A stretch of 45,223 nt of DNA from a virus. Position 1 is the first letter of the stretch, and every line of letters starts with the position of its first letter. The DNA is taken from the IMG/VR virus record IMGVR_UViG_3300025120_009907, positions 1 through 45,223 of that record. The stretch is one strand, 5' to 3'. The notes under the pieces are model-generated. The model searched no databases. It was not told the origin of the DNA and was given only the letters and a program-made list of their open reading frames with translations. Position numbers and translations under genes: made by a program. Positions 17,883 to 44,617 of this stretch are shown in pieces.

Positions 17883-20800
17883 TTATTCAGGTGCGTTTGT
17901 AGGCTCGTTAGCAATGAATTTAGCCTGTTGGCTTGTAGAAGCCTGTAATCCTTTACCATCTGCTGGGTTTCCGTCCTTAGCAGTGTACCAAACCTGTCCT
18001 TTCTTGTGTAAGATTTTAACCTGTGTTCCTGATGCTGGAACAGTGCTCAAAGTCACTGCTGTCGTGCTTCCGTCCACAGAATAGTTGATAGTTGATCCAT
18101 CCTCGCTAGTGAGCAACAATCGTTGGCCACCAATGAATATGTCTAACTCACTAGCGGAGGCTGGGGTTTGTGATAGTGCGAATGTAGCCGTGCTACCGTC
18201 ACCTGTGAAGGTGTTGGTGTACACAGTGTCCGCGTAAGGGATGGTTTGAGTACCAGACGCATCTACCACTTCCGTGCCTGATCCATGCCCCTTAATTCCT
18301 GTACCAAGTGTTCCACGTCTTAGTTGTCCCAACGTGTTACTTGATTTTGTAAAGTATTCTATTCTCTCTTTGTCTATGAATATGACCCCTGGAGTATTGC
18401 TTGCCGCGTCCGGTGTTGGCAACACGCTCGCATCTGCCACTGTTATAGTCTGTGTGCCTTCTGTCATATCTATTGTTAATTTTGTAGCCGCATTTTTTGA
18501 AATACGTTTGTAGAACGTCCTGTTCATCATGTCTTTGAAAATCCTGAATCCCGTAGCACCTGTTGCCGTTTCGAGTGCGAAGTACATCACATCTAGTCTG
18601 TCTGAAGAAGTTATCGTCTTTCCTGAAACTGTTATCGTGTTGCCACTTGTCACATAATCAGTACCTTGTATCAACTGCTCTCCGTTCAACCAGACGAAAG
18701 TGTATCCTGCGTGTAACGTATCAAATCTCAATTTGAACACACCACCTGGTCTGCCTTCTAAGACTTCTCTCCGCTGTTTCATTCCAAGTGCGTTGTTGAA
18801 TGTTGTGACTGAAATCTTGTCACTGTTTGATAACGAATAAGGTGAAGTGATCGCACTTGGTACTAACACTATGTCGTTGCCTGCGTTGAAGTACTGATGA
18901 TCTACCAGAGTAGAAATACAAATAACATCAGTGCTTGTGGGAACGGATGCTGTAACAAATTCAATGTTGTTGTTTCCAACATCCACAGTGTAGTGTGTGT
19001 TAAGATCTTTCTTGGTTCCGTTCACATACACTTCTACCTGTGCGGCAGATGTTATCGTTTTCGCTGGGTCTACTGTTGAATCATCTGATAATCCTGATAC
19101 CACACCATAAGTGTATGTACTTCCGTCACCAACGTAGTATGTGTTGTCTGGACCACGTAGCATTCTGCCGTTCACTTCGACAAGTGTCAATCCTGAGAAT
19201 GGTCCAACTGATCCCGCAGGATATGTTAGGGTGTATCTATTTGTTCCAGTTGCATAAGTCAGTTCTTGATTTCTCACACTCGCATAACTCCGTGTTGTTG
19301 TACTTGATGTTTGGAAACCTGCTATCTGTATGTAGGTGTTGTTTGCAGGTGCACTGTTAAACGTCACTGTTATTGTATTATTAGTAGTTGTTGTTGTAAA
19401 ATTAGTTGTAGGCACACCGTCTATTGTGATGTAGATTCCTGAATCAACTGTTGAATCCAAATGAAACTCACCTCTAGTGGATGTCGTGTACACTGTAGTG
19501 CTTCCGTTGCCAGTGAATGTATTCAACACCCTGTAGTTCTCACCTGATATTGCAAATACCTTAGTCGATATTGTACTGTTGTTTGCAGGTGCTGATGTGA
19601 ATGTTATTGTTTTGTTCGCAACACTGATCGAATAGTTCGTTGTCAATTTCTGTACAACCCCATCAACGGATACTGTAACAGATCCTAATGTTCCAGGATA
19701 GTCACCTATGCTGTATGTTGTTGTGCTTCCATTACCCCTGTGATTCATTTCGCTGATGAACGGAACACCTGACTCTGGAGAAGTGTAAACCTTGATGTCT
19801 AATGTGTCGAACATCTGTCCAGGCACAACCTCTTCTGGTGCGTAACTGGTGTCTGGTGAGACGAAATCGTCACCCTCTAACACAATGTCGCTCGGTGCGT
19901 GACCCAGTGCTGAGGTGAACAGGCCACCTTTTACTAAAGAATCTAACGTCCTATCATCTGTTGGTGTAAGCACACCGTCGTCATCGAAAGGAATGAACTC
20001 TACCAATGCGTTGGATTCTGGTGTTTCACTTATAGTGAAAGTTACTGTGGATCCATCTCCCCTGATCACATCTGATAGTTTTTTACGTGTGCTGTCATCC
20101 TGTGTCAGGTAAACCTGGTAAACTTCAGTCGATGCTGGTGCAGTGTCAAACGTGTATGCCGCTGTTGATCCATCGGCCCTGAATGCCTTGACTCTAGATG
20201 CTCCATAGTTGTCCCAAGGGAAGTCATACCAACCTGCTTTATCCCAACCTGCTTCTTGATTGAATAATAATCCTGTGACCATCGTTCCACCGTAGTCCAC
20301 ACCTGTCATCACTTGGTCAAGTTCGTTGCCCGGCATTCCCGAACCTGGTGTGTAGAAACCTTTGGTCCTGTCTGCCGCTGTTAATCCTGTCTCGTTGCCG
20401 TAAACCTTGTAAACTTTACCTATGTTGTCATCGAAATCTGTGCTTGACGTGAATGCGTTTGTGACTTTGTACAGTTGATTGTTGTATCTCAACAAGTCAT
20501 TGTAAGCATATGCCGTTGATGCTTTCCAGTCCACAACACGAGATGTGCTAGACACCCTATCAAATTTAATCGTTGTGTCAAAATCTCTAACAAGGTCGTT
20601 TTTTAAATTTGCGTATGCCTTGGCAGTATCCGTTGGCGTTGATCCGTCCTTCTTACCACCTGATAAAATCACTGTTGGTGTTGCCGTGTAGTTTGCACCT
20701 ATACCTGTCACTGTTATTTTCGTTACTGCACCGTTCTGTATGATTGCCGTGGCTGTGGCCGATGTTGTAGTTGGCGTTATGTACATCTTGAATTCGCTTC

Positions 20801-23800
20801 CTTTGGTACTCTCTGACTCTCTTACTGATGTTGTTGGACCATAGAATGTGCCTGTCAGCCCATCAAAAGTGTATGCCTTGGTTGTTCCTGCTCCTGAATT
20901 CTGTGTGTCGTATATTTCTGCCTGTTTCTCACTTGTAAACAACGGGTAATAGTATCCAAACTGTCCACTTGTGGTTCCTGATGAACTAGTTGCTTGTATC
21001 TGGAATGGACCCGTTGAGCCTGTAGTTCCGCCCAATACTGTCACAGTAGGAGCAACTTCATATCCTGATCCACCTGTTGTCACTATGATTGACTCCACAT
21101 ACTTCTTATGGTAGTCGTACCACATCTGGTGTGGGTACTCTGTCAATTTTGCCGTGTCTAATTCCACATTGAGACTTCTGATCTTGCCTGTCGCGGTATC
21201 ATAGAAAGTTGGATTGTCAAAATCTGAGAATATTCCGTCCTGTGTTTCCGTCTTGTCATACCCTAGTCTGTATTCCCGCAGTTTTGTGTGGAAGGGTTTG
21301 ACCTCATTGATATAACTTTCTATCCAACTGTCTGTACCTGTTGTGTAGGTTTTCCTCTGGTCCAGTTGTCTAACGCTGTTTTTGGCATTTATGAATGATG
21401 TTTTGAACATCCAGTCCACGTATGTCTGTTCTGAAAGTACCTTTCTCAGTCCTGTGAAAAATAATGTGTTGTATTCTCCTGCTAGGTCATTTATGAACAA
21501 TTCATCTCGCAATGCTGTCAACACTTTCCTTGTCTCGATACTTGGCTCTTGATCAAAGAAGTTGTCATCGAACGTGTCCTCACCGGCAAAACCTGTGGCT
21601 TCCTGTGAGTAATCATAAAGTTTTGTGCTTAATCTTATTGTTCCGTTCTCTGTTCCAACGTTTTCCCATCCTGTAGCAGTTTTCATAAACAGTTTCCATC
21701 CACCTGTGTCCGCTGATCTCACTTTAACGTGTTTACCTATGGCAATATCCAAAGTGTCTAATTCATATTGGTATGTAACCTGTTTGTCAATCTTGGTGTT
21801 CTCGTTGTGTACCATGTCTCCGTCTGTCTTGTACCAGTCTGTGTAACTCCAGTATGCAGAGGTGTTATAGGTCTGTAATTTAGTTCTTGACCAAGTAGTG
21901 CCATCCCAGGTGTATATTGCCCAATAGTTGCTGGCTGTTTCATCAGCCTTGACCAGGTAGTTTGTTGTACCTGATATGTCTGCTGTGTTCACATAGGTCA
22001 ATTCCGCATATGTGTCCACAGAAGAGTCCCATTCAAGGCTCTGTGCTGTGGGCTCTGGATCCTTTGAGTCTAGGTTCGATAGGCTGATCTGTCCTACCAA
22101 TTGGTTTTTCTTTAACACCGTGTTGGCGTAGTCTAATATCTCTTTAAGTGCGTTGTACCTGTCCACATACCAACTCTGCCTTGGTCTTATGTTGTTACCA
22201 TATCGTTCGTTCAATGGAAGATCTATATCTGGCACAATGTCTCCTGCAGAATTTTTCCCTATTAAAGAATCCCACCAACGTGTCTCTATCTGGTGTCCGG
22301 GTCTGTATTCTGAATCACCTTCCCTAACCAACTTCCACACGCTGTGGGAGTCACCTTCAAAAGTGTTAGTCCTTGTGTCTATGTTCAACACTATATCGTT
22401 GTTGACTAAATTTTTTACGTTGTTAAGTAAAAATTTGTTTGTGTCTGTGATTGAGTAATACTTGAAGTCAAATGCACTAGGATTCTGTATAAGATTCGCT
22501 ACATAGGCCACTGTGTTCTTTCTTGTTACCAAACTGTTTATAGGCAACGTTGTTTTACCTTTGACCCAATAGTAATAAAAGTTGACAAACTTGTCTAATC
22601 TCGAATCGTACTTCTGTGTCACCGTGTACTGTGAGTCGTCACCGTATAATGCTGTGCCTGAAACTGTACGTCCAATATCTTCCTGCTTATTGTTCCATTC
22701 GCTTGGCAGTAAACTTGATTCTACCCATTCATACACATCTATACTTGAACCCGGGAAGGTCTGTCCCCAGTGATTGTGTTTGTATTCCTGTGTGTCCTGT
22801 TCGTACCATAGCCATTTCACTGTTGAAAGATCCCACCATACCTCACCTATGTGCTTCTCGTCCCAAGATGTTTTTGTATTAGCATTATCACCTACATTGT
22901 AGGTTGCTGGATCCCAGGCTGTCTTTATGTTAATCTCTCTATCTGCCACTCCTAGTATCCTGCCCTTAATAGGATCATACAGATCATAGTAGTCCTGTAA
23001 TTGTTTTGTTTTATTATTAAACTCGAACACCTTGCCTAGTTTATCTGTGTCCATTAGTGCCGTTTCTGTCACCAAGTTCTTCCAAGCGTACTCGCTTTTC
23101 ACTGTGAGATCGTAACAGACAACCGTTCCGTCGTTCACTACCTTGGTACTTCCGTCTGCTCCTGTGTTCCCATCATCATTTGGTGCACCTACGAATACCG
23201 AATTGTCAATCATGTAAACGCCACGGCCAAAGTCATCCTGTTCTGACATATTTTCTGATGTCAATCTGTCATCTATTATAAACTTGGTGTTGTACATTGT
23301 TGCCGTAAATGCGCCTCCCGATTGAGTGTTCGGATCTACTATAATGGTGTCCTGTAGGTCAAATGTTGTTTCCCCAGAATCAAATTTCATCTCCCTTGAA
23401 CTGGCAAAGTTTTCCGCTCCTATCACAAGTCTCGTTCCATTGTCATTGAGGCCTAGACTCGTGCCAAACTTCATGTTGATGCTCGAACTAGGTGCACTTA
23501 TGGTCTGTTGCAGTGTGTAAGTGTTTGTTGAATCATCAGCATTCCATTTGTAGTAATATATGGCTCCTGCATCTGCATTTTCTACACCATCCACACCCGG
23601 TGCACCAATTATCAAAGTAGTGCCATCCTTGCTCATTGCTATTGATTCACCAAAGGCAGTGTTTAGTGATGACCCGTCATTGGCGACACCTGTTATGGTC
23701 TGTGCCAGTGCAAAGGAATTTTGTGTGCTTCCATCATTGCTTTGCGATGTCTTGATGAATATCTCTACCTTGCCTGCGTTGCCAGGTGCCAGTGAACTCA

Positions 23801-26800
23801 CAGCCAGTATGTCACCGTTGTCATTGGCTTGTATCCTATGCCCAAATCTCTGTCCTGAACCACCTGCCGGCGCCTCTATGGTGTAATCTTGCGTCCATGT
23901 GTCATATGTAGAACCGTCTGTACCCACACCCCAAGTGTACATGTAGACCCTGCCTTGATCATTATCGTGTCCCGGTGCTGACACAAACAGATGTTTGTCT
24001 GCTGTTGACCTATTTGAGGATATTCCTGGCTCGGATATTTTATGTGCCCATCCAAAATTAGCGTTCGCATTCAATGTGGATCCATCTGTAGGAGCCTTCA
24101 CTGTGTCCAGTATACCATACTTGAACGTGCTTGGATCCCATATGTAAATTTTAATCAGTCCTGAATCGATAAATCTAGTACTTCCGTCGGCACCCACTGC
24201 ATTTGTGTATGGTGCTCCTGCAACCACGAAGTTTTCATCTGTACTCATTGACAGTGACTCACCTAATCTGCTAGTATTATCATCATTGTCGGTCATGGTT
24301 CCCACAGACTGTGATTGTAAAAGAGTGCCCGCTGTAGACGAGGATCTATATAGGAAGTGTACCTCTCCCTGAGTCTTGCCTGGTGCTGATACTACCACTG
24401 TCCTCCCGTCATTTCTTGCCACTATCCTGTGTCCAAACTCCTGTTCCGCTGTGTTGGCATCTGGAGATAGTACTAATCCAGTGGTGTACGGATCCTGTTT
24501 CTCATACACACGCCACAATCCTGATGTATCGGCATCTGCAAACACTTTGTCACCTGGTTGTTCTATTGTTTCGTTTTTGTCCGTGTAATCATTGTAATTC
24601 AATAAATCATTTACATTGTTCATTGATGCTAATCTTACAGATATAAATTTGTGTATGTTTCCGTAACTGTCGGCCGTTGATCCATCTTCCAGTGCTGGTA
24701 TAAATCCAACGTTGCCTGTGTAGTCTATAACCACTGTCTTGTGGTCTGGGGTTGATGATACCTGATACGCCCCATTCAGTGTTTGCTCCTCACTGTTTGA
24801 TATTCCAAAGTAGTCGGCCTCTGCTGTGGTCGTTGCGGCTGACAGGTTGTGTGAATCTGTAAAAATGATCTCTAACTGTGATGCATCATTTATCAAGTTT
24901 AAGTTTGCTATCTTTATACCAGCATTCGAGATCCTGAAAACGTCCCAGTCTAGATTGCTTTTGTTGGCGACCCAAACTAAATCGTTGGCTGTTATTGCAT
25001 TCATATCGAGATTCAGTATGTCCTCTATGTTTAATGCCGTGTGTTGCACTTGTTGTAGTTGTGGGTATCCTGCCGTCTTGAACACCTGTGCTGTGTCCCT
25101 GCTGACCCCTTCTTTGCTGTAGTCTAATCTCTTGAATGTCGTAGATGCTGTATACTCGACCGGTTTGTAGTGGAAATCGTCTTTGACTATGGCATCTGAT
25201 CTTGAATATTCAACAGTTTCATTTGATGTGTCTAACAGTTCTATACTCTGTGGGTTTGCTATTATCTTTTCATCCTTAAGAACAATCTGTATATTTTCTA
25301 TGGAATCTGTATTACCAAAGTTACCTGTACGTATCATCCATTCCGGGTAAAGGTCAAGACTGATGTCTTCACCCTCATACTTGGCCTTAAGGATCTTGTC
25401 TATGGCGTTCTGTGTGCCTTTCTCTCTGATATATCCTTGGTAGAACTTGTATTGTGAAACATCATTGACGAATAGATTCTCTAGATAGTCTCTTGACTGA
25501 TATCCTGTCAACCTTTGCGCCAGCGTTTGTTGAGATTCATCAAAGTTGTTTGTCTCTAATTCATAAAAATCATTGAACTGTGAAATTTTGTAATCAAAGT
25601 TAGGTATCAATTGTGGTGCTGGTTTTTTGTCTTTGAGTGTCCACCTAGTTGTTTCGAAAGTTGTGCCCGAGTTATGATTTATTTTTGCAACATAGAACTT
25701 GCCTTGATACTCTATACTGTCGCCTATCCTGTAGTCTGTGTTGGCAGACCAGTAAGTAACCTGTGCGGCATCGAACACGAACCCTGGTGCGTAGTAGTCT
25801 CCGTTCCATCCCGCGGTCTTCCAACCAACTAATTTCAATCTCTGTTGTCTGAATCCTGTATACGGATCATATATTATGTCTGCGAATACTGTGCTGTTGT
25901 CGAACAGCAATACATGTTCCTTCTGTACTGTGTTCAGTGCGATGTTATAAAGACCTACTGTGTCGGACTTGATCCCTAACTCAAATGTTTTGCCCATACG
26001 TTTGGTCGATATCTCGTTGATATCTATCTTCCTTCCTCCGGAATCTAACAACGAGTAGTCACCTGCTAGGTTTCTTAATTTGCCAACAATGCTGTTGTTT
26101 GTATCCAACTCAAGGCCATCCGCGGCTGGTGACACAGTGATTGCTGATCCGGGAGTCCATTGTTGTGTAGTCCAGAATAGGAATTCCCTAACTGCGTTTG
26201 ACCAGTTCAGTGTTTCTTTCAATTCATTTGAGAACTTGTTAAATCGGAAACCCTGATCTTCCAGCCAGTGACCGTATCCAAACAAGAAATCAGCCACATC
26301 CTGTATAGTATCAAAGACGTGTCCATAAGGTATAATCTGTGTCGTTTCTTGATATGTAGCATACTGTTCGATCACAGTTGATCCTTCTACAGATATTGCC
26401 TTTGCTGTTGTTGTTTTAGTAGGATAGTTGAAGTTGAAGTACGGTTTCACAGTACTGTAACCTAACACCTTGTATCCACCCAACACTGTTGATCCATCCT
26501 GACTGATGTCTGTGTTCTTCTCTATCAGTACACCCGAGTACTGAAAACTCTCCACAGGATTAGATGTCCTGAATAATATCTTGTAGTTCTCATCCGGTAT
26601 AAATTTTGATCCTGCTGTTGATCCCGGAGACACACTGTCTGTTAGAATTTTTATGTTGTCCTTATCAGTAAATCCTCCCAACTTGTATGCTAACTGCACA
26701 GTAAGGTTCTTCATCTTGTCGTAGTAGAAAATTTTGCTGTCTAGGTTCTGTGAAATCAGATAGTTGACTACGAGCGGTTGGTAGCCTGCTGTTTGGTATC

Positions 26801-29800
26801 TTGATATAACACCTGTTGCTAGGTCCGTCTCTGTCTCTAAATGGTATTTGGCTGTTGCTAATGAAATCCTAATGCCTGTATCTTTATCTATTTGATTTCC
26901 TGCTGTATTCGTGGTCAATCGCGAAGGATCAAAAAAGTTTGAAAAGAATTTAGCCGGTTTAGTAAGTGCCAGAGTCTTCATCACTGTGAATGGGTAAGAA
27001 CTAGATCTCCTCCATGACGTTTCCGCTGGTGCTTGATCACCAAACTTCCAAGCGTTCTGCCTTCCTGGTATGTCAAAGTTATCAATCAATCCTGCCGCTA
27101 ATGGGTCTAGTAGGTTTCCTGATGCATCAACTGGTAGGTAGGTTTTGATTTCTGGCTTGCCGTACCTGCCTGGCTCCGTTGCAATGGCATCCCAAAGTAC
27201 ATCATTGGCTGACGTGTATGGTGCTGGTCCATAAAGTGTTTCCCAGTTGGTTGGCTTCTCCGAGTGTCCCAACATCTCCCATGGCCTCACATGCGGAGCG
27301 TCCGTGTCGTAAAAATATTTGTATATGCCTCTCCAGTGCCCTGGTAGGTTCTCACCTATCAGTCTACCTTTTGATCTTGCGTAGTTGTACGTGAATGGTG
27401 ATCCCTCTGTGAACACCGTGTTGTTGATGTATTGAACACTGTTACGTCCCGCCCACTGATAGAAATCTGAGCCCATCACACTATCTATTTCCTGCAGTGT
27501 GTATTCCGTTGACGTGAAAGCACTCGGCGACACATCATGTATGTCTAGCAATGCTGGGTCGTGTTCTACTTTTATGTTGTTGTAGATCCTTTTTTCAAGT
27601 TCTAAAATTAAATCATCACGCTCATCTCCATATGCCTTTATTATGGAACCGTCGTGTTTCCTAATGACCGCTGTGTCTGTGATATAGGTTGTGTCTGTAA
27701 ATGTCTCAGGTGTAAATTTAGTATACATTCCAAGTTTGGTCGGTGATGGTGGCATGTAACTTCCAGTCGTGTCTGTGTAATCCTTGATCACAATCTTGTC
27801 ACCTTCTGCCAGTGTCTTGCTGATATTCACACTGTCATCTGTTGTGCTGAATGTGTAATCCGTTCCTAGCAATAATTGAACACCATTAAGGTAAACGTAT
27901 ACCGCCCTATTGCTTAGGGTTGTGATGTTGTGCTGTGAATCTAGTGCATAGTCTGTCTGTGAGGATCCCATCACTGTGTATGATCTCGTTGAAGCATTCT
28001 CTCCCCAGCCCACCATGTCCTCATAGTAGAACGGGAAAGTGCTGTTCCTGCCTAAAGTGATCGCGGAGATTATCTCGTTGACCCTGTCAGCGGCTATTCC
28101 CTCATATGCTGTTCCTGTTACGTGTGTGAGGAATGCGTTGTACCATTTCTCATACTCCTGACTCACGTAGTCTGTTGCTGTGGTGAAGTTGGCTTGCTGG
28201 TCTATGATGTTGAACACGGCAGAGAGTAATGGCGCCTCATGCTGGTGTATGCTACCACCCTTCAATCTTGCATCTGGTTTGTCCCTTAGGTTTGATACTC
28301 CTGGTATCGAACCCGTGACATCCTGATTCTTGTCAAGTATATCTCGCACATGATTCAGTATCTGTCCAAACGTGAACGTGCCCAACTGCTGGTTGAGACT
28401 GTTGGTTGACAAGTTCTCAGGTATCTCATATATTCCCTTGTCGACTATCTTGTCAGCACTGCTGTGTGCCGCTATCCGTATCTGGTCGTTGACTTCTAGT
28501 GCCTTGTTAAATTTTATATATTTGTTTTTTGTTCCTGTTTCCAGGGTGTAATCTGTAGTCAGTGTCTTCCTCGATCCGTTCACAGACACTGACACTTCCA
28601 TATCCGTGAGGTCCGCTGAATCTTTATAGAAGTCTATCGGGAACAACTGTTTCTCTATTGCTTCAACAATAAAAGTCCTTGTGACACGCTGTTTGCTTTC
28701 ATTTGTTCTCTTTATCCAGGCACTCCTTGAATTGTGTGTTGCTCTATTAGTCGTGTAGTGCAGGTGTCCTTCGGCTAGATTCTTTGTGATTGTATTCGAT
28801 CCACTTTTATAAGTGAATGTTCCTGACGTGTGATCAGAATCAAAAACAATGTCTCCCACATTGTTGATAGTGTTGTACTTGACCTTAATACCTAACACAG
28901 TGTCTGTTGTGGCCGTGTCTGAAGTTGCGAAAGCAAAAACTTTCGCACCTGTAAAGGTTGAATTAGGATATGTCGTTGAATCATCAAATGATGTGTGGTC
29001 ATTGTCCCACATGCCGAACAATGGCTGTTGGTTCATCCCCGTCTTCTGCTGTGCTTCCACAAAAGTTTCTGTGGTGCTATCATAACGGAAAGTCTTGCCC
29101 TGATTCGTTTTTCCAAACTCTATGAATATGGAATCGTTATCGCTTGGTACGGCGTCAGATGCCTCCGTCAAGTTAATGACCTGTGTTGAATCTCCTGCTG
29201 TTACGAAGTTCACATCGTATATCTTGTTCTTTACCAAAGGGTCTGTGTCTGATGCAAACACTACCCTCATTCCGTTTGCTAGTGCCAGTCCGTCAACAAT
29301 GTAACCTGTTTGTTTAACCACCGATGAAAAAGCATCTGTTGTAACTGTATCATACAACGTTACAGATCTTTTAGCCACTGTCCCGTGATTGTAAAGTGCT
29401 AATCCAGAATCAAATTCTATTATTGGTCTTTTGGCCCTATCAGTTTCATTTAATGTAGGAGTGAAACTACTAACTCTTGCTGTCTCTTCTATGATAGACT
29501 TGTGGAACCATCTATTGTATCTAGACCAAGCGTTTTGGTCTCGTGAATCTCTCTTGATTGTGATGTAGTCTTTTGCCTCTGGCGTGTAATAGGCCTTTGC
29601 ATAAGGTCTTGAATCATACCCTGCTTGATCGTACAGTATTGTAGATTCTGTTGCATAACTGCCTGGCGTAATCAAATCATCCACATCAGTAAGAGTTATT
29701 GCATCGCCAACACCTTCCACATAGTACTCTTTATTTTGGTATGCAGTTGGTACCAAGGAGTTTGTGAATTTAATCTTCATCCCATTGGAAAGATCCAGTG

Positions 29801-30734
29801 TCCTCAGACTGTAATTTTTGGCACCTATGATATCATCCTCTACGTTTATGTTCGTGGTGCTTGTAACGTCTTTGATCTGTAGTATGCCGTACATGGCATC
29901 GTGGTTGCCGCATTGGTAATATAATGTATCAGGTGCACCTGTTGTTGGAACTGTGAATGTTACTGTTCCTTCATCCGCACCATTGTTGATCACTCCTGTG
30001 TCAAATATCGTCGACGTAGAACCGTCTGTCGAAATCTTGCTCTTGTATGGCTCTGTCATTATCCAGAACGGATGTCCTTTGGCATTCACGTTAAACTTAT
30101 ATGTGTTTCCCCTGTATAGGGTCAGAATAGGATTGTTTTCATTTTCTCTTTGTGTAAAATTGTAGGCGCCTTGTGCGAGATTCTCTACAGAATATTCCAC
30201 TACTGCACTTGGACCGACTGAATCTATTTCTATCGATCCAGGCCCTTCCGGTATCCAGTAGTACTCCCTATAGTTCACCAACTTGTCGTAATCAATGGCA
30301 GGATTCCAACTGTATACAGTTTCCTTGTTAAGCCTATCATGGTTGTTGACTTTGCCACCTAGATACTTGATCTGATTTATGTAGTCGTCATATGTTCCTG
30401 TGAATTTAACTTGATCTTCTGGATTTACAGAAGTGGTATCCTTGTCTGTGTATGTTACTGTAGGCTCTAGTTGATATGCGAATCTATCCCTGCTGATTGC
30501 ACCAATATACCTGTCATTGATTGATCTAGTGTAGGCATCCTGTTTACCTATGTAACCGTCCACCCTCTCCAGTGAACCTTTCTGCACCAAAGGATCCATT
30601 GTACTTGACAGGAATCTCTGGTTGGCGTCCGTCCTGTAGAACGCTGGTAGGTGTTGTACCGTACGCCTGTACTCGTTGTCTCCTTGCTTGACAACTTCGT
30701 TGTTTATCAATGCGTTAGTAATATTGTCTGCCAT
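17883..30734 (-). CDS. Giant virion structural protein (4283 residues), gp7-position baseplate/tail component
   Basis: 12.85 kb, over a quarter of the window, translated from an ATG sharing one base with the gp6 stop. The N-terminus (TVQHLPAFYRTDANQRFL) resembles phage tail-wedge openings. Residues 200-288 look like a cupredoxin: H221 in GHPFW, then C275, H278 and M281 in YYQCGNHDAMYG. Around residue 1750, FYQGYIREKGTQNAIDKIL resembles a segment seen in baseplate wedge proteins. Residues about 2095-2550 hold seven FG-GAP-like blades. From about 3660 there are repeated beta units built on GDGST or GNGST, VxVNG and a DYTV-type turn. There is no signal or membrane segment. By position it replaces T4 gp7; homology to gp7 itself is unproven. 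Confidence 0.72.
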   Translation of the reverse strand: MADNITNALINNEVVKQGDNEYRRTVQHLPAFYRTDANQRFLSSTMDPLVQKGSLERVDGYIGKQDAYTRSINDRYIGAISRDRFAYQLEPTVTYTDKDTTSVNPEDQVKFTGTYDDYINQIKYLGGKVNNHDRLNKETVYSWNPAIDYDKLVNYREYYWIPEGPGSIEIDSVGPSAVVEYSVENLAQGAYNFTQRENENNPILTLYRGNTYKFNVNAKGHPFWIMTEPYKSKISTDGSTSTIFDTGVINNGADEGTVTFTVPTTGAPDTLYYQCGNHDAMYGILQIKDVTSTTNINVEDDIIGAKNYSLRTLDLSNGMKIKFTNSLVPTAYQNKEYYVEGVGDAITLTDVDDLITPGSYATESTILYDQAGYDSRPYAKAYYTPEAKDYITIKRDSRDQNAWSRYNRWFHKSIIEETARVSSFTPTLNETDRAKRPIIEFDSGLALYNHGTVAKRSVTLYDTVTTDAFSSVVKQTGYIVDGLALANGMRVVFASDTDPLVKNKIYDVNFVTAGDSTQVINLTEASDAVPSDNDSIFIEFGKTNQGKTFRYDSTTETFVEAQQKTGMNQQPLFGMWDNDHTSFDDSTTYPNSTFTGAKVFAFATSDTATTDTVLGIKVKYNTINNVGDIVFDSDHTSGTFTYKSGSNTITKNLAEGHLHYTTNRATHNSRSAWIKRTNESKQRVTRTFIVEAIEKQLFPIDFYKDSADLTDMEVSVSVNGSRKTLTTDYTLETGTKNKYIKFNKALEVNDQIRIAAHSSADKIVDKGIYEIPENLSTNSLNQQLGTFTFGQILNHVRDILDKNQDVTGSIPGVSNLRDKPDARLKGGSIHQHEAPLLSAVFNIIDQQANFTTATDYVSQEYEKWYNAFLTHVTGTAYEGIAADRVNEIISAITLGRNSTFPFYYEDMVGWGENASTRSYTVMGSSQTDYALDSQHNITTLSNRAVYVYLNGVQLLLGTDYTFSTTDDSVNISKTLAEGDKIVIKDYTDTTGSYMPPSPTKLGMYTKFTPETFTDTTYITDTAVIRKHDGSIIKAYGDERDDLILELEKRIYNNIKVEHDPALLDIHDVSPSAFTSTEYTLQEIDSVMGSDFYQWAGRNSVQYINNTVFTEGSPFTYNYARSKGRLIGENLPGHWRGIYKYFYDTDAPHVRPWEMLGHSEKPTNWETLYGPAPYTSANDVLWDAIATEPGRYGKPEIKTYLPVDASGNLLDPLAAGLIDNFDIPGRQNAWKFGDQAPAETSWRRSSSYPFTVMKTLALTKPAKFFSNFFDPSRLTTNTAGNQIDKDTGIRISLATAKYHLETETDLATGVISRYQTAGYQPLVVNYLISQNLDSKIFYYDKMKNLTVQLAYKLGGFTDKDNIKILTDSVSPGSTAGSKFIPDENYKILFRTSNPVESFQYSGVLIEKNTDISQDGSTVLGGYKVLGYSTVKPYFNFNYPTKTTTAKAISVEGSTVIEQYATYQETTQIIPYGHVFDTIQDVADFLFGYGHWLEDQGFRFNKFSNELKETLNWSNAVREFLFWTTQQWTPGSAITVSPAADGLELDTNNSIVGKLRNLAGDYSLLDSGGRKIDINEISTKRMGKTFELGIKSDTVGLYNIALNTVQKEHVLLFDNSTVFADIIYDPYTGFRQQRLKLVGWKTAGWNGDYYAPGFVFDAAQVTYWSANTDYRIGDSIEYQGKFYVAKINHNSGTTFETTRWTLKDKKPAPQLIPNFDYKISQFNDFYELETNNFDESQQTLAQRLTGYQSRDYLENLFVNDVSQYKFYQGYIREKGTQNAIDKILKAKYEGEDISLDLYPEWMIRTGNFGNTDSIENIQIVLKDEKIIANPQSIELLDTSNETVEYSRSDAIVKDDFHYKPVEYTASTTFKRLDYSKEGVSRDTAQVFKTAGYPQLQQVQHTALNIEDILNLDMNAITANDLVWVANKSNLDWDVFRISNAGIKIANLNLINDASQLEIIFTDSHNLSAATTTAEADYFGISNSEEQTLNGAYQVSSTPDHKTVVIDYTGNVGFIPALEDGSTADSYGNIHKFISVRLASMNNVNDLLNYNDYTDKNETIEQPGDKVFADADTSGLWRVYEKQDPYTTGLVLSPDANTAEQEFGHRIVARNDGRTVVVSAPGKTQGEVHFLYRSSSTAGTLLQSQSVGTMTDNDDNTSRLGESLSMSTDENFVVAGAPYTNAVGADGSTRFIDSGLIKIYIWDPSTFKYGILDTVKAPTDGSTLNANANFGWAHKISEPGISSNRSTADKHLFVSAPGHDNDQGRVYMYTWGVGTDGSTYDTWTQDYTIEAPAGGSGQRFGHRIQANDNGDILAVSSLAPGNAGKVEIFIKTSQSNDGSTQNSFALAQTITGVANDGSSLNTAFGESIAMSKDGTTLIIGAPGVDGVENADAGAIYYYKWNADDSTNTYTLQQTISAPSSSINMKFGTSLGLNDNGTRLVIGAENFASSREMKFDSGETTFDLQDTIIVDPNTQSGGAFTATMYNTKFIIDDRLTSENMSEQDDFGRGVYMIDNSVFVGAPNDDGNTGADGSTKVVNDGTVVCYDLTVKSEYAWKNLVTETALMDTDKLGKVFEFNNKTKQLQDYYDLYDPIKGRILGVADREINIKTAWDPATYNVGDNANTKTSWDEKHIGEVWWDLSTVKWLWYEQDTQEYKHNHWGQTFPGSSIDVYEWVESSLLPSEWNNKQEDIGRTVSGTALYGDDSQYTVTQKYDSRLDKFVNFYYYWVKGKTTLPINSLVTRKNTVAYVANLIQNPSAFDFKYYSITDTNKFLLNNVKNLVNNDIVLNIDTRTNTFEGDSHSVWKLVREGDSEYRPGHQIETRWWDSLIGKNSAGDIVPDIDLPLNERYGNNIRPRQSWYVDRYNALKEILDYANTVLKKNQLVGQISLSNLDSKDPEPTAQSLEWDSSVDTYAELTYVNTADISGTTNYLVKADETASNYWAIYTWDGTTWSRTKLQTYNTSAYWSYTDWYKTDGDMVHNENTKIDKQVTYQYELDTLDIAIGKHVKVRSADTGGWKLFMKTATGWENVGTENGTIRLSTKLYDYSQEATGFAGEDTFDDNFFDQEPSIETRKVLTALRDELFINDLAGEYNTLFFTGLRKVLSEQTYVDWMFKTSFINAKNSVRQLDQRKTYTTGTDSWIESYINEVKPFHTKLREYRLGYDKTETQDGIFSDFDNPTFYDTATGKIRSLNVELDTAKLTEYPHQMWYDYHKKYVESIIVTTGGSGYEVAPTVTVLGGTTGSTGPFQIQATSSSGTTSGQFGYYYPLFTSEKQAEIYDTQNSGAGTTKAYTFDGLTGTFYGPTTSVRESESTKGSEFKMYITPTTTSATATAIIQNGAVTKITVTGIGANYTATPTVILSGGKKDGSTPTDTAKAYANLKNDLVRDFDTTIKFDRVSSTSRVVDWKASTAYAYNDLLRYNNQLYKVTNAFTSSTDFDDNIGKVYKVYGNETGLTAADRTKGFYTPGSGMPGNELDQVMTGVDYGGTMVTGLLFNQEAGWDKAGWYDFPWDNYGASRVKAFRADGSTAAYTFDTAPASTEVYQVYLTQDDSTRKKLSDVIRGDGSTVTFTISETPESNALVEFIPFDDDGVLTPTDDRTLDSLVKGGLFTSALGHAPSDIVLEGDDFVSPDTSYAPEEVVPGQMFDTLDIKVYTSPESGVPFISEMNHRGNGSTTTYSIGDYPGTLGSVTVSVDGVVQKLTTNYSISVANKTITFTSAPANNSTISTKVFAISGENYRVLNTFTGNGSTTVYTTSTRGEFHLDSTVDSGIYITIDGVPTTNFTTTTTNNTITVTFNSAPANNTYIQIAGFQTSSTTTRSYASVRNQELTYATGTNRYTLTYPAGSVGPFSGLTLVEVNGRMLRGPDNTYYVGDGSTYTYGVVSGLSDDSTVDPAKTITSAAQVEVYVNGTKKDLNTHYTVDVGNNNIEFVTASVPTSTDVICISTLVDHQYFNAGNDIVLVPSAITSPYSLSNSDKISVTTFNNALGMKQRREVLEGRPGGVFKLRFDTLHAGYTFVWLNGEQLIQGTDYVTSGNTITVSGKTITSSDRLDVMYFALETATGATGFRIFKDMMNRTFYKRISKNAATKLTIDMTEGTQTITVADASVLPTPDAASNTPGVIFIDKERIEYFTKSSNTLGQLRRGTLGTGIKGHGSGTEVVDASGTQTIPYADTVYTNTFTGDGSTATFALSQTPASASELDIFIGGQRLLLTSEDGSTINYSVDGSTTAVTLSTVPASGTQVKILHKKGQVWYTAKDGNPADGKGLQASTSQQAKFIANEPTNAPE
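17990..19760 (-). repeat. C-terminal array of beta-sandwich-like repeats in the giant protein
   Basis: About five or six units, each with a G(D/N)GST start, a hydrophobic strand, a V-x-V-x-G turn naming a loop such as VSVDGVVQ, VYVNGTKKD, VWLNGEQL or IFIGGQRL, then a Y-x-V strand and an SAPAN or TVPAS turn. This is a common fibre-type repeat. Divergence at the protein level is large. Confidence 0.6.
23090..24450 (-). repeat. Seven FG-GAP-like blades in the giant protein (probable beta-propeller)
   Basis: Successive units open FGHRIVARNDGRTVVVSAP, LGESLSMSTDENFVVAGAP, FGWAHKIS...HLFVSAPG, FGHRIQANDNGDILAVSS, FGESIAMSKDGTTLIIGAPG, FGTSLGLNDNGTRLVIGAE and FGRGVYMIDNSVFVGAPND. Each is followed by an acidic DGST-type loop and an aromatic strand. 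Seven units match the blade number of integrin-alpha-type propellers. Boundaries are approximate. Confidence 0.72.
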
Positions 30735-39433: not shown

Positions 39434-39733
39434 CTAAATCCCTAGATCTCTAAGCAGGTTCTCTTTCTTTGGTAACTGCACAGTGACTCCGGGTTTAAAA
39501 TCATAAATGGGATCTTCAATTTGGTCTGGGTTACGTTGTGCAAACACCCACCACAGTCTCGGCGAGCCATAAAGATCATAGGCCAACAGGTCGGGCCTAT
39601 AGGCGTAAGTCCTCTCTATGGTATAACTCTGATCGTCCTGCTCGGCTGTTATAGTTCTCGGATTTAATATGTCTAGATAATTGCTTGTTTCGCCTGTTGC
39701 AAAATACGGTGATGTGTTTGAGTACTCGGCCAT
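39434..39733 (-). CDS. 53: Baseplate wedge protein gp53
   Basis: 99 residues, shorter than T4 gp53 (196) but typical of marine relatives. The conserved block is YAYRPDLLAYDLYGSPRLWW, then VFAQRNPDQI and DPIYDFKPG, ending in VQLPKKENL. This has the look of the LysM-like gp53 core. In T4, gp53 is added to the wedge and clamps it to its neighbour. The start shares a base with the preceding stop; 2 bases separate its stop from the hub ATG. Confidence 0.82.
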   Translation of the reverse strand: MAEYSNTSPYFATGETSNYLDILNPRTITAEQDDQSYTIERTYAYRPDLLAYDLYGSPRLWWVFAQRNPDQIEDPIYDFKPGVTVQLPKKENLLRDLGI

Positions 39734-40554
39734 TAGATGAATCCTACCTCATTGCCTTTGCCGTTAAGTTCTCCATTGACGAATTTCTTCATTGAGAACT
39801 CCTTGACCTTATCTCTGCTGTAGATTGGTGTTATCAACACTGATATATTTGATAATGTTGGTGCCCAGGTCTGTGACTCACCTGTCTGTACTAACTGTGT
39901 CACGTTGCTAGGAGTCGCTGAATTGGTGTCAGATTGTTTTGTACTGATGTAATCTATGCCCTGTCTCAACTCTATGTTGAACGAATTTACTACCACAGGT
40001 ACCCTGTTGAACATGTGGTCCCCGTATCCATAAAGATGCAGGATCGGTGGGGGATTACCTTTGAGTCCGTTTAGGCCAGTTTCGCTACCAAAGAACATCT
40101 TGGTTGCAGTCCTTAGGAAGTTCACGGTTGCAACCCAATGCTTGGCATCTTGACTGTTCTGTACTGGAAATTCTCCAATAATGTTTAAAGAATCAATTTG
40201 CGAGTTCTGGTAAGCCTGGTGTGGAAAATTACTGTGTGTCATATCCATAGCGTTGTAGGTGGCCTGGTGTGCTATCTGCATTGTGGGTGTCAAAGGCCAG
40301 AATATACCCTGTGATGGTGCTAGAGGTTGCATGATCGGATTGTTAGCAAAATCAAAGAACTGTGTCAATGGTCCATCTGGAACTTGCAATCTCACACGCC
40401 AGTCAGTCTTGTCGTTACGTCCTGACCATTTTGCCCTAGCGTTAACGATCCTGGAGTCCGTGGAAATACCGGCACCCGTGAGCCTACCCAGGGTCCTATT
40501 GAGTATGCCCGATCCCACGTTCTTGACTATTTTTCCTATTCCACCAAATACCAT
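39733..40554 (-). CDS. Baseplate protein, possibly tail tube cap/junction (gp48/gp54-like)
   Basis: 273 residues from the ATG at 40554. A longer frame reaches 40644, but the TATAAATA late motif lies at 40599-40606, between the two starts, and AAAGGAAA is upstream of the shorter one. The sequence has KTDWRVRLQVPDGPL, GIFWPLTPTMQIAHQATYN, FPVQNSQDAKHWVATVNFLR and a beta-rich C-terminus, all soluble. It is the first gene of the baseplate operon. Tube-cap proteins of marine T4-like phages fit the size and position, but I cannot match it firmly to gp48 or gp54. Confidence 0.5.
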   Translation of the reverse strand: MVFGGIGKIVKNVGSGILNRTLGRLTGAGISTDSRIVNARAKWSGRNDKTDWRVRLQVPDGPLTQFFDFANNPIMQPLAPSQGIFWPLTPTMQIAHQATYNAMDMTHSNFPHQAYQNSQIDSLNIIGEFPVQNSQDAKHWVATVNFLRTATKMFFGSETGLNGLKGNPPPILHLYGYGDHMFNRVPVVVNSFNIELRQGIDYISTKQSDTNSATPSNVTQLVQTGESQTWAPTLSNISVLITPIYSRDKVKEFSMKKFVNGELNGKGNEVGFI

Positions 40555-40562
40555 CTTAATGG

Positions 40563-40591
40563 TTGCTTTCCTTTGTAAAATTTCGTATACT
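40563..40591 (+). promoter_or_regulatory. Sigma70-like promoter for gp55-gp47-gp46
   Basis: TTGCTT (40563-40568), a 17-base spacer and TATACT (40586-40591): three of six and five of six matches to consensus with ideal spacing. A start near 40598 would give a leader of about 100 bases to the gp55 ATG at 40698. It faces the minus-strand late promoter 8 bases away. Confidence 0.42.
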
Positions 40592-40598
40592 TTAACTA

Positions 40599-40606
40599 TA
40601 TTTATA
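40599..40606 (-). promoter_or_regulatory. T4-type late promoter for the baseplate operon (TATAAATA)
   Basis: An exact eight-base match on the minus strand to the late -10 element recognised by gp55-type RNA polymerase. It sits in the divergent gap, 44 bases before the ATG at 40554, so the leader would be close to 40 bases. No other gene start lies between. It should drive the minus-strand baseplate genes late in infection. Confidence 0.55.
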
Positions 40607-40697
40607 GGCATTAATCTAGGCGCACTTAATTCACCATACGACACGATTCAACAGACCTGTTTGTGGTCACTCACATTGATACAAAGAGAAGGAATTT

Positions 40698-41678
40698 ATG
40701 AAGAGAGTCAAGTACCTAAACAACAGAGATCTGCTACTGCAGATACATGCCAGCAAGAACACATACTGTTCTTATGTTTCACCCGAAGACTCACAGTTTG
40801 ATCTCATAGTGCCCAACCTGAAGAAAATCAATGCAAGTGCGGTAGCACAGGCACGTAAGGCCAAGGCCAAACGTTTGACACAGGAAGCATGGGAAGAGGC
40901 CAAAACAGCAGGACTGAAAAAAATTAAATTAGTGGACTACACAGTGAGTCCGAGAAAGATAGACAAGACGGATCTTGTGTTCAGGGTCATGATGTTCGAT
41001 CATGTGCCCATGGACGACCAGAGGAAGAAGAATCCCAAGACTGTGGCAGACCATCACAGCAAAGTTAACTTCCCACCGTTCCAACACTACAGATTTGATG
41101 TGAAAGGTAAACTTGTATGTGTGGGAAAATCACACTGGATAGGTGGCATGGATAACGGACACTTCTCATGTGACCATGGCAAGATGACAAACCAACTGGC
41201 GATGATGTACATGAAACTTTGCGAGAGATATGGAACAAGAGCAAACTGGAGAGGATACACGTACAACGATGAGATGCAATCACAGGCGTTGATGCAACTG
41301 AGCCAGATCGGCTTGCAGTTTGATGAATCTAAATCAGACAATCCTTTCGCATACTACACAGCGGCAATAACAAATTCGTTCACGAGGATTCTAAATATTG
41401 AAAAGAAAAATCAAGCGATCAGAGATGATCTGCTCGAACAGAACAACATGATGCCCAGTTTCACAAGACAAAATGAAAATGATGCCAGTTCACCGATATA
41501 CAAAAAAAGAATGGAAACCATACACGGCGAGGTGCGACAGGTCAATAAAACCGGCATTGCAAAATTAAACAAGGTGCTAAAGAAAAAAGGTAAGATCGAT
41601 TCGGAAGACTTTGAAAGTGTTAACTCTAGGAAAGTTGACATGACTAATCACAAACCAATCGTGAAGAAGAGGTGGTAA
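40698..41678 (+). CDS. 55: Sigma factor for late transcription, gp55
   Basis: 326 residues with AGAAGGA 5 bases before the ATG. The conserved core is RANWRGYTYNDEMQSQALMQ, GLQFDESKSDNPFAYYTAA and NSFTRILNIEKKNQAIRDD, the sigma-2-like region of T4-family gp55 that recognises TATAAATA. It is much longer than T4 gp55 (185). The N-terminal 170 residues include a basic stretch (ARKAKAKRLTQEA) and HYRFDVKGKLVCVGKSHW, which I recall from related marine phages. The C-terminus is lysine-rich (LKKKGK, VKKRW), and I do not see an obvious hydrophobic sliding-clamp binding tail. It is followed 3 bases later by gp47. Confidence 0.88.
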   Translation: MKRVKYLNNRDLLLQIHASKNTYCSYVSPEDSQFDLIVPNLKKINASAVAQARKAKAKRLTQEAWEEAKTAGLKKIKLVDYTVSPRKIDKTDLVFRVMMFDHVPMDDQRKKNPKTVADHHSKVNFPPFQHYRFDVKGKLVCVGKSHWIGGMDNGHFSCDHGKMTNQLAMMYMKLCERYGTRANWRGYTYNDEMQSQALMQLSQIGLQFDESKSDNPFAYYTAAITNSFTRILNIEKKNQAIRDDLLEQNNMMPSFTRQNENDASSPIYKKRMETIHGEVRQVNKTGIAKLNKVLKKKGKIDSEDFESVNSRKVDMTNHKPIVKKRW

Positions 41679-41681
41679 TTA

Positions 41682-42704
41682 ATGGCATTCTTTAAAAAGG
41701 TGGCCTGTTTCACGGACATACACTTTGGTCTTAAAGGCAACAGTCGCATACACAACGACGACTGTGAAGAGTTCGTAAAATGGTTCATAGCACAAGCCAA
41801 GGCAGAAGAATGTGATACCTGCATATTCCTAGGAGACTGGCACCATCATAGGTCAGCAACAAACGTTTCCACGATGAACTACACAGTGTCCAACATGGAG
41901 AGATTGGGTGCGGCGTTTGAGAAAGTTTATGTGATCATGGGCAATCATGATCTGTACTACAGAGACAAGAGAGAGATCAATTCGATGGAATACATCAGGA
42001 ACATTCCAAACATACACATTGTGAATGAATGGTTGGTGGAAGACGATGTTGCAATCATACCGTGGGTTGTGGGAGACGAATGGAAAAAAATTGAAAAGAT
42101 GAAACAGAAGTACGTGTTTGGACATTTTGAATTGCCTTACTTCAAAATGAACGCAATGGTAGAAATGCCAGATGTTGGCGGAATACAGACTGATCATTTC
42201 GCAGGTTGTGAGAAAGTGTTCTCAGGACACTTCCACAAAAGACAGATAATGAAAAATGTGACTTACATGGGCAACGCCTTCCCACACAACTATGCAGACG
42301 CATGGGATGATGACAGGGGCATGATGATTATTGATTACGGTAAAGAACCCAAATATATTAACTGGCCCGATATGCCGAGGTATATCACAATAAAAGTTTC
42401 GGAGTTGCTAGAAGATCCAGACAAATACTTAAAACCAAAAATGTATGTGAGAGTCACATTAGATATAAAAATCAGTTATGAAGAAGCAAACTTCGTCAGA
42501 GAAACATTCATAGACAAGTATCAACTGAGGGAACTACAACTGATTCCAGAACAGGTGGACAACGCACAGCAACCACTAGTTGAAGTGCAGAAGTTTGACA
42601 GCGTGGATCAAATCGTTATCAAACAGTTACAGGGCGTGGACTCAGAGGTCTATGACAAGAACGTGTTAACAGCAATTTACAACGATCTAGATGTCACGAA
42701 TTAG
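41682..42704 (+). CDS. 47: Recombination nuclease subunit gp47 (Mre11/SbcD-like)
   Basis: 340 residues. Five metallophosphoesterase motifs are present in order: DIHFG (D12, H14), GDWHHHR (D52), GNHDLYYRDKR (N88, H89), GHFE (H148) and SGHFHKR (H183, H185). These bind two metal ions in the nuclease active site. With gp46 it processes DNA ends for recombination-dependent replication and, in T4, host DNA breakdown. The ribosome site is AGAGGTGG. The 3' end overlaps the start of the 54-residue gene. Length is as in T4 (339). Confidence 0.95.
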   Translation: MAFFKKVACFTDIHFGLKGNSRIHNDDCEEFVKWFIAQAKAEECDTCIFLGDWHHHRSATNVSTMNYTVSNMERLGAAFEKVYVIMGNHDLYYRDKREINSMEYIRNIPNIHIVNEWLVEDDVAIIPWVVGDEWKKIEKMKQKYVFGHFELPYFKMNAMVEMPDVGGIQTDHFAGCEKVFSGHFHKRQIMKNVTYMGNAFPHNYADAWDDDRGMMIIDYGKEPKYINWPDMPRYITIKVSELLEDPDKYLKPKMYVRVTLDIKISYEEANFVRETFIDKYQLRELQLIPEQVDNAQQPLVEVQKFDSVDQIVIKQLQGVDSEVYDKNVLTAIYNDLDVTN

Positions 42705-42855
42705 TAAAAAGAAATTGATAGAAGTTTTGAAGGGTGACCTCGAGGAACCTGTAACCAAACAATCACTTTTGGATCAACTTGCAAAACCCGTAACACAGGA
42801 AGAGTGGTTGAAAGGATATAACGAATGGAAGAGGAAACAACTTGCTAACGATTAA
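42691..42855 (+). CDS. Small charged protein between gp47 and gp46 (54 residues)
   Basis: An ATG within the last codons of gp47 opens a frame that reads through the whole gap and stops 14 bases inside gp46. It starts MSRISKKKLIEVLKGDLEEP and ends WLKGYNEWKRKQLAND. It is basic at the start with two helix-like halves. The frame fills the 137-base gap between two nuclease genes exactly. T4 also has small open frames between 47 and 46, but I cannot claim homology. A regulator or accessory of the nuclease is possible. Confidence 0.62.
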   Translation: MSRISKKKLIEVLKGDLEEPVTKQSLLDQLAKPVTQEEWLKGYNEWKRKQLAND

Positions 42856-44617
42856 AGAACTCACGGTGAAGAACTTCATGAGTGTGGGCAATCAGGCCCA
42901 GGCCATAGATTTCTCTAACAAAAATCTTGTGTTAGTGATCGGTGAGAACATGGATTTGGGAGGTGATGATGCTGGTGCCAGGAATGGTACTGGTAAGACC
43001 ACTATTATAAATGCACTATCCTACGTGTTTTTTGGTGAGGCATTGACAAACATCAGAAGAGACAATCTTGTAAACAAGACCAATGAGAAAGGCATGTTGG
43101 TTGGTGTCAAGTTCATCAAGAACGGAATCACATACACAATCGAGAGAGGACGTAAACCACAGATATTCAGATTCTATGCCAACGACATAGAGCAGAAAAC
43201 AGAGAGCAACGAAGCACAGGGCGAGAACAGAGAAACACAGGTAGAAATAAACAAACTAATGGGCATGACCCACTCCATGTTCAAGAACATAATTGCACTG
43301 AATACCTACACGCAACCGTTCTTGTCGACCAAACAGGCAGAACAAAGAGAGATAATCGAACAGTTGCTTGGCATAACACTGTTGTCACAAAAAGCAGATC
43401 TATTGCGTGAAAAACAAAAAGCAACAAAACAGATGTTGACCGAAGAAAAATTAAAAATAGATGCCAGGGTGGCTTCTAATGAAAAAATACAAGAGTCCAT
43501 AGAGAGTCTGAAAATAAGATCAAATGCATGGAGCAAACAGAAGGACGACGATATAAAAGGTTTCCGGGAGGCGATTGCGGAATTGGAAAAAGTGGATAGT
43601 GAAATAGAGATAGCCAAACACAAAAAATTACAGAAACACGCCGAGATGCAGACTGCATTAAGAAGTCTGCAGAAAGAGAGAGCGTACCATGAGGATTCAT
43701 TGACTAAAGCCGAAAATACTGTGGCCAAAACAGAAGCAGATCTAGAATACACTAAACAACAAAAATGTCCCACGTGTGAACAATCACTACACGACGACAA
43801 GCACGAGCTCTTGGTCGGAAAACTAAAAACACAACTTACTGAATCAACAGAATACGTAACAAAATTACAAGGCGATCTTGCAGAAATACAAAAAGGCATC
43901 GACGAGGTGGGAGACCTAGGACAAGTGCCAGACACGTACTATGACACCATGGACGAGGCATACAATCACAAGGGATCGTTACAGGATCTCATACGACAGT
44001 TGGACCAGACAGAGAGGAAAGAAGACACATATGCAGAACAGATAGCGGAGATGCAGAAATCCGCAATACAAGAAGTAGATTATGAAAAAGCCAACGAGAT
44101 GGAAGACCTACACAGACACCAAGAGTTCTTATACAAACTGTTGACGGCAAAGGATTCGTTCATAAGAACAAGAATTATAGAACAGAACTTGACATATCTG
44201 AATCAACGCCTAGCATATTTCCTGGGCAAGGTGAAACTGCCACACACCGTGACTTTCCAATCGGACCTGAGTGTGCGTATCGAGGAGTTGGGCAGGGAAC
44301 TGGATTTCGACAACTTGTCAAGAGGCGAAAGAAACAGATTGATACTAAGCCTAAGTTGGGCATTCAGAGACGTGTGGGAAAGCCTTTATCAACAGATCAA
44401 CTTGCTGTTCATCGACGAACTGGTAGACGCAGGCATGGACATATCAGGAGTTGAAAGTTCGATGGCAGTGCTCAAAGACATGAGCAGGACGCAGAAGAAG
44501 AACATATTCCTCATATCACACAAGGACGAATTGGTAAGCAGAGTAAATTCTGTATTGAAAGTTGTAAAAGAAAATGGTTTTACCAACTATGCCAATGATG
44601 TTGACATAATTGTTTAA
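42842..44617 (+). CDS. 46: Recombination nuclease subunit gp46 (Rad50/SbcC-like ATPase)
   Basis: 591 residues from a TTG start at 42842; LTIKELTVKNFMSVG follows the family opening, and AGAGGAAAC lies just upstream. Walker A is GARNGTGKTT (45-54). Coiled-coil arms flank a zinc hook, CPTC (309-312). The ABC signature LSRGER is at 492-497, Walker B LLFIDE at 521-526 and the H-loop ISH at 558-560. The protein clamps DNA and powers end resection by gp47. The arms are short, as in T4 gp46 (560). It overlaps the 54-residue gene by 14 bases. Confidence 0.95.
   Translation: MLTIKELTVKNFMSVGNQAQAIDFSNKNLVLVIGENMDLGGDDAGARNGTGKTTIINALSYVFFGEALTNIRRDNLVNKTNEKGMLVGVKFIKNGITYTIERGRKPQIFRFYANDIEQKTESNEAQGENRETQVEINKLMGMTHSMFKNIIALNTYTQPFLSTKQAEQREIIEQLLGITLLSQKADLLREKQKATKQMLTEEKLKIDARVASNEKIQESIESLKIRSNAWSKQKDDDIKGFREAIAELEKVDSEIEIAKHKKLQKHAEMQTALRSLQKERAYHEDSLTKAENTVAKTEADLEYTKQQKCPTCEQSLHDDKHELLVGKLKTQLTESTEYVTKLQGDLAEIQKGIDEVGDLGQVPDTYYDTMDEAYNHKGSLQDLIRQLDQTERKEDTYAEQIAEMQKSAIQEVDYEKANEMEDLHRHQEFLYKLLTAKDSFIRTRIIEQNLTYLNQRLAYFLGKVKLPHTVTFQSDLSVRIEELGRELDFDNLSRGERNRLILSLSWAFRDVWESLYQQINLLFIDELVDAGMDISGVESSMAVLKDMSRTQKKNIFLISHKDELVSRVNSVLKVVKENGFTNYANDVDIIV

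Follow-up and report, generated by a model that had tools for sequence, protein, structure and literature searches.

Interlocked host-sigma-type and late promoters predicted at the gp55 gene of a marine clade of T4-like phages

Introduction

Can the arrangement of two promoters beside a late sigma factor gene by itself couple early to late expression in a phage? The locus that raises this question belongs to a 45,223-base virus record, analysed at its full length and called the window here. The window holds a long minus-strand tail/baseplate region and plus-strand genes at its right end, and a gp55-type late sigma gene sits where the strands turn around. A sequence-only reading of this DNA had placed a sigma70-like promoter for gp55 face to face with a late promoter on the other strand, and had proposed that late polymerase could shut off gp55, gp47 and gp46. 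The layout resembles T4 late transcription in its gp55-family protein and in a TATAAATA-type box without a -35 element before structural genes (PMC2988020). However, T4 gene 55 is embedded in an early/middle block of its own strand, and no late gene diverges beside it.

Results

The gp55 gene (40698..41678, plus strand) was assigned by profile match and alignment, and its 326-aa product matched the late sigma profiles phrog_12791 (E 7e-82) and phrog_234 (E 1.5e-23). It is followed on the same strand by genes for a gp47-like SbcD nuclease subunit (41682..42704), a 54-aa ORF bridging gp47 and gp46 (42691..42855), which is also present in the 138.7-kb relative G001, and a gp46-like SbcC ATPase subunit (42842..44617). 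These four form one packed unit without a break, so a single promoter could govern all of them. On the minus strand, the late operon begins with a gene for a virion structural protein (phrog_12050; 39733..40554, ATG at 40554), after which comes a gp53-like wedge gene. The ATG-to-ATG gap between gp55 and the divergent structural gene is 143 nt. Megablast of the window against named phages gave no match. The minus-strand structural region also holds a single 4283-aa ORF (17883-30734), and among the tail genes there is a 692-aa ORF with matches to Hint/intein-type domains (12173-14251, minus strand).

The sigma70-like promoter proposed for gp55 was present in this gap. Its -35 element TTGCTT, recognised by sequence and conservation, lies at 40563..40568 (plus strand) within the extended element GGTTGCTTTCC, and its -10 element TATACT lies at 40586..40591, with a predicted start at about 40598. 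TTGCTT matches TTGACA at three of six positions and TATACT matches TATAAT at five of six; both elements are kept in relatives, at a spacing within the 16-18 nt of sigma70-type promoters. Two other assignments were rejected or weak. TTGCTT does not qualify as a MotA box, since its distance of 15 nt to the -10 element does not fit T4 middle-promoter spacing and the 17-nt -35 spacing is invariant. The leader sequence TTAATT is a weak alternative -10 element, kept as TATAAT only in L320, L323 and L328. The -35 element is overlapped by AAAGGAAA, a ribosome-binding-like sequence of the late gene (40567..40574, minus strand), which is conserved less than GGTTG. We rejected the ribosome site alone as the reason for GGTTG conservation, because the AGGA part is less conserved than GGTTG, which also recurs without that role at a second promoter of the same type (8864-8834, minus strand).

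The late box TATAAATA of the baseplate/structural operon, also anticipated by that reading and kept in relatives, lies on the opposite strand at 40606..40599, where the plus strand reads TATTTATA. Taken alone the box is not rare (two in the window against 1.29 expected), and chance was rejected as its origin by the conservation and shuffle results below. The shorter motif ATAAATA occurs six times in the window, every time on the minus strand and just upstream of a minus-strand gene start, a placement with a probability of about 2e-11 under random placement; no plus-strand ATAAATA was found in the window. In G001, 22 of 24 ATAAATA sites lie 0-65 nt upstream of a same-strand ORF start. Judged by this placement, ATAAATA is clearly the predicted late box of the window phage. 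Phage CBB has been reported to carry the same motif ahead of structural genes (PMC5259590). Half of the G001 late boxes stand 0-9 nt ahead of the ATG, and their late mRNAs would thus have almost no leader. Leaders exceed 9 nt in the other half, and the 45-nt late leader of the structural operon is therefore not extreme.

T4-type late promoters are recognised by gp55-RNA polymerase and activated by the gp45 clamp and gp33, and T4 gp55 has a hydrophobic acidic C-terminal tail that binds the clamp. The window gp55 ends in ...NHKPIVKKRW, which by eye is not acidic, and in contrast to T4 the gp55 of this clade has an N-terminal region common to jumbo phages and a basic C-terminus. A search with PF02916 (gp45 clamp) gave no match anywhere, with the controls equally silent. 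As an obvious T4-like acidic clamp-binding tail is missing from the clade gp55, the strength of the late promoter is not inferable from T4.

The two promoters are opposed and separated by TTAACTA (40592..40598), a gap of 7 nt rather than the 8 bases first given. The T4 late box begins at -13 (PMC2988020), and we predicted the start points by placing the late box at -13 to -6 and the -10 element at its standard position. Both starts fall within the gap, at about 40598 on the plus strand and about 40593 on the minus strand, 5 bp apart. The predicted transcripts diverge without overlap, transcription from either promoter would run first through the other one, and the predicted melted regions overlap. 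With starts this close, each polymerase would cover the other promoter and the two should exclude one another; from the geometry, host-sigma and gp55 polymerases would hardly be able to occupy the site together. The window holds a single TTG-N20-TATANT-N6-8-TATTTATA, a pattern that 300 dinucleotide shuffles never produced. A looser combined pattern occurred once in the window and once in G001, each time at gp55.

Such interlocked divergent promoters would work as follows. Host-sigma polymerase would start gp55-gp47-gp46 rightward at about 40598, and gp55 polymerase would start the tail/baseplate operon leftward at about 40593. Melted regions and footprints would share DNA, leaving room for one bound polymerase at a time, and each polymerase, when transcribing, would pass through the other promoter. 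In the early phase, host-sigma polymerase would make gp55 and cover the late box. Once gp55 accumulated, late polymerase would take the site, make tail proteins and shut the operon of its own sigma factor. The proposed shut-off of gp55, gp47 and gp46 by late polymerase fits this predicted layout and would be one half of a mutual exclusion; the geometry equally allows the other half, in which early polymerase guards the late operon. Exclusion might even act mainly in that reverse direction, with early polymerase on or across the late box silencing the tail operon until host-sigma transcription fades. The arrangement is symmetric, and the gp55 transcript is predicted to start beside the late box and cross it. 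We nevertheless consider a mainly reversed exclusion quite unlikely, as other late promoters of these phages have no such lock and late promoters require gp55 anyway.

We compared this layout across relatives fetched by gp55 protein similarity, plus others fetched by the motif itself, counting distinct loci only. Of the 96 distinct relatives fetched by protein, all with a gp55 identity of at least 65.8%, 94 kept TTG-N17-TATA(C/A)T-N6-8-TATTTATA, as did 126 of 128 loci once the motif-fetched ones were included. One exception (L327) retains TTGCTT, TATACT and TATTTAT, but the spacing differs and one base of the box is changed. The spacing of the divergent gap, which the earlier reading had named as a check, was indeed conserved: 6 nt in 3 loci, 7 nt in 108 and 8 nt in 15, with a distance of 17 from TTG to the -10 element in 126/126 and TATACT or TATAAT as the -10 element in all 126. 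Among 81 representatives with less than 90% DNA identity in gp55, fourfold-degenerate gp55 sites were 44% identical on average. The -10 element and the late box were 100% identical in the 71 representatives with a 7-nt gap, where TTG and the GG before it were also invariant. A scan of 2.9 million viral contigs with an 18-base core gave at least 80 loci, and among the matches listed 76/80 adjoin gp55 or the divergent late gene. This conservation is the decisive test, at the level of sequence, that the combined motif is real.

Conservation could also have another source: both promoters are needed independently, neither is easily moved, and they share a small divergent gap by happenstance with no regulatory coupling. 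Against the switch model, footprints must overlap in many arrangements once gaps are small, the late leader is not extreme in length, and the clade gp55 has no obvious T4-like acidic tail; in gaps of about 90-145 nt the overlap is almost unavoidable, and a gap of 6-8 nt is tolerated. Two late promoters, TATAAATA-N25-TATTTATA, are also kept face to face in the same phages, between the baseplate hub and a structural gene (L401, G001:100976-101016; L399, G002:92786-92826; L400, G003:92231-92271), so opposed promoters can persist without an early-late switch. As mutual exclusion runs both ways and this late/late pair is conserved, the geometry alone is no proof of a switch.

The position of the gp55 promoter bears on the same alternative. 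TTGA-N17-GTATAMT (M = A/C) occurred four times in G001 against 0.27 expected from shuffles. One of these sites is that of gp55; the other three have their -10 element 6-7 nt before an ATG, and the gene behind one of them encodes a dNMP kinase. By its motif, the gp55 promoter is a member of a small putative class of host-sigma-type promoters, which may be middle rather than early. The gp55 leader of about 100 nt is unusual for this class, whose other promoters give nearly leaderless mRNAs, and the interlocked position is therefore not simply the shortest packing. With early promoters normally 6-7 nt before the ATG, 143 nt would have left room for a non-overlapping arrangement, and in 127 loci the order, once established, was never reversed. 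These points make independent promoters without coupling an unlikely explanation, though one to be taken seriously. The second promoter of the class in the window, GGTTGATTTTCCACCATAATTATTGTATAAT (8864-8834, minus strand), stands about 7 nt ahead of the ATG that opens a 106-aa gene in the late region, and sites resembling it recur in most clade contigs searched.

The gp55 leader holds two further elements. Directly behind the late box is a conserved block, GGCATTAATCTAGGCGCACTTAATT (40607..40631, plus strand; GGCA..ATTNTAGGCGCAYTTAATT), present in one copy per contig and almost as conserved as the promoter boxes. It has a direct-repeat-like form (TAGGC...TAGGCGCACTTAATT). The block may be an RNA element, or else a binding site through which either promoter is influenced. 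Farther along lies an optional 15-nt hairpin, GACC-TGTTTGT-GGTC (40654..40668, plus strand). Its stem reads GACC/GGTC in 60 loci, GGCC/GGCC in one, a compensatory change, and GGCC/GGTC in one, a wobble. Block and hairpin could together be the main control, protein-bound or acting as RNA, with promoter overlap secondary. The strong conservation and single copy of the block and the one compensatory change speak for such control. We regard it as very improbable, since the hairpin is missing in some loci, part of the clade having lost it in one piece, and neither an Rfam match nor a consensus structure beyond the 4-bp stem was found.

More distant relatives keep the gene pair and mostly show the opposite promoter order, the late box standing behind the early promoter or within it, so they manage without the face-to-face arrangement; this too counts against the switch model. 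The jumbo phages RaK2, GAP32, CBB, 121Q and PA5oct likewise have gp55 and a baseplate gene head to head, and their gaps hold a late ATTTAT box and a host-type promoter as in the clade. For CBB, a promoter before gp55 and the ATAAATA late motif have been reported (PMC5259590). In contrast to the clade, the late box of the named jumbo phages stands behind the early promoter, back to back and mostly 25-50 nt before its -10 element, not in front of it. The gaps of Vibrio 2.275 and Phosso gave no clean assignment of promoter order. A different hairpin, with the loop AAGGAT or ACGGAT and varying stem letters, lies near the predicted gp55 mRNA start in CBB, Hallingskeid, 121Q, XaC1, GAP32 and Munch (L086, L089-L093).

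In a sister marine group (59-66% identity), a late-type box touches the -35 element, 21-22 nt before the -10 element, in 35/46 loci, and lies inside the spacer (5 nt) in 6 loci. The candidate ACTAAATA was rejected as a general late box of this group, genome-wide support being absent. In 27 loci the box at the -35 element is the non-consensus TATTTAGT, and no enrichment of CTAAATA was found in the genomes of these loci, so its late-promoter activity in the sister group is uncertain. The face-to-face loci form one group on the gp55 tree (support 83/89), with one change, in 84% of bootstrap trees. The promoter order probably changed once, and on this tree the face-to-face order is a property of one marine phage clade.

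Discussion

The predicted layout slightly favours interlocked promoters with mutual exclusion, in which gp55 polymerase would later close the gp55-gp47-gp46 operon. A feedback switch from early to late expression built into this layout is plausible from the sequence, and we only infer that exclusion regulates gp55 output during infection. More tentatively, at somewhat less than an even chance, the locus may be a cis-encoded sigma-exchange switch, in which the late sigma factor silences the operon that encodes it, its holoenzyme starting from the interlocked late promoter; with the same reserve, this takes the geometry as fixed in the marine clade and in the other order across jumbo phages.

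Opposed promoters are known from other systems. At E. coli bioA/bioBFCD and argE/argCBH, overlapping opposed promoters start a few bp apart and their polymerases are mutually exclusive. Those pairs use one sigma factor and a shared repressor, whereas the pair of the clade would answer to two sigma factors, of which the operon encodes one. Phage 186 has opposed promoters with transcriptional interference within a developmental switch. There, the choice is between lysis and lysogeny under repressors, not a sigma exchange in a T4-like phage. The CII switch of phage 186 has been described (PMC7708051). In the open-access papers searched, neither autoregulation of gp55 nor a promoter pair of this kind was described.

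The comparative set supplies motifs for the early and late promoters of a large clade of uncultured marine phages. The layout offers a concrete, testable wiring by which a T4-like phage could stop making its late sigma factor and turn on its tail genes without an extra regulator.
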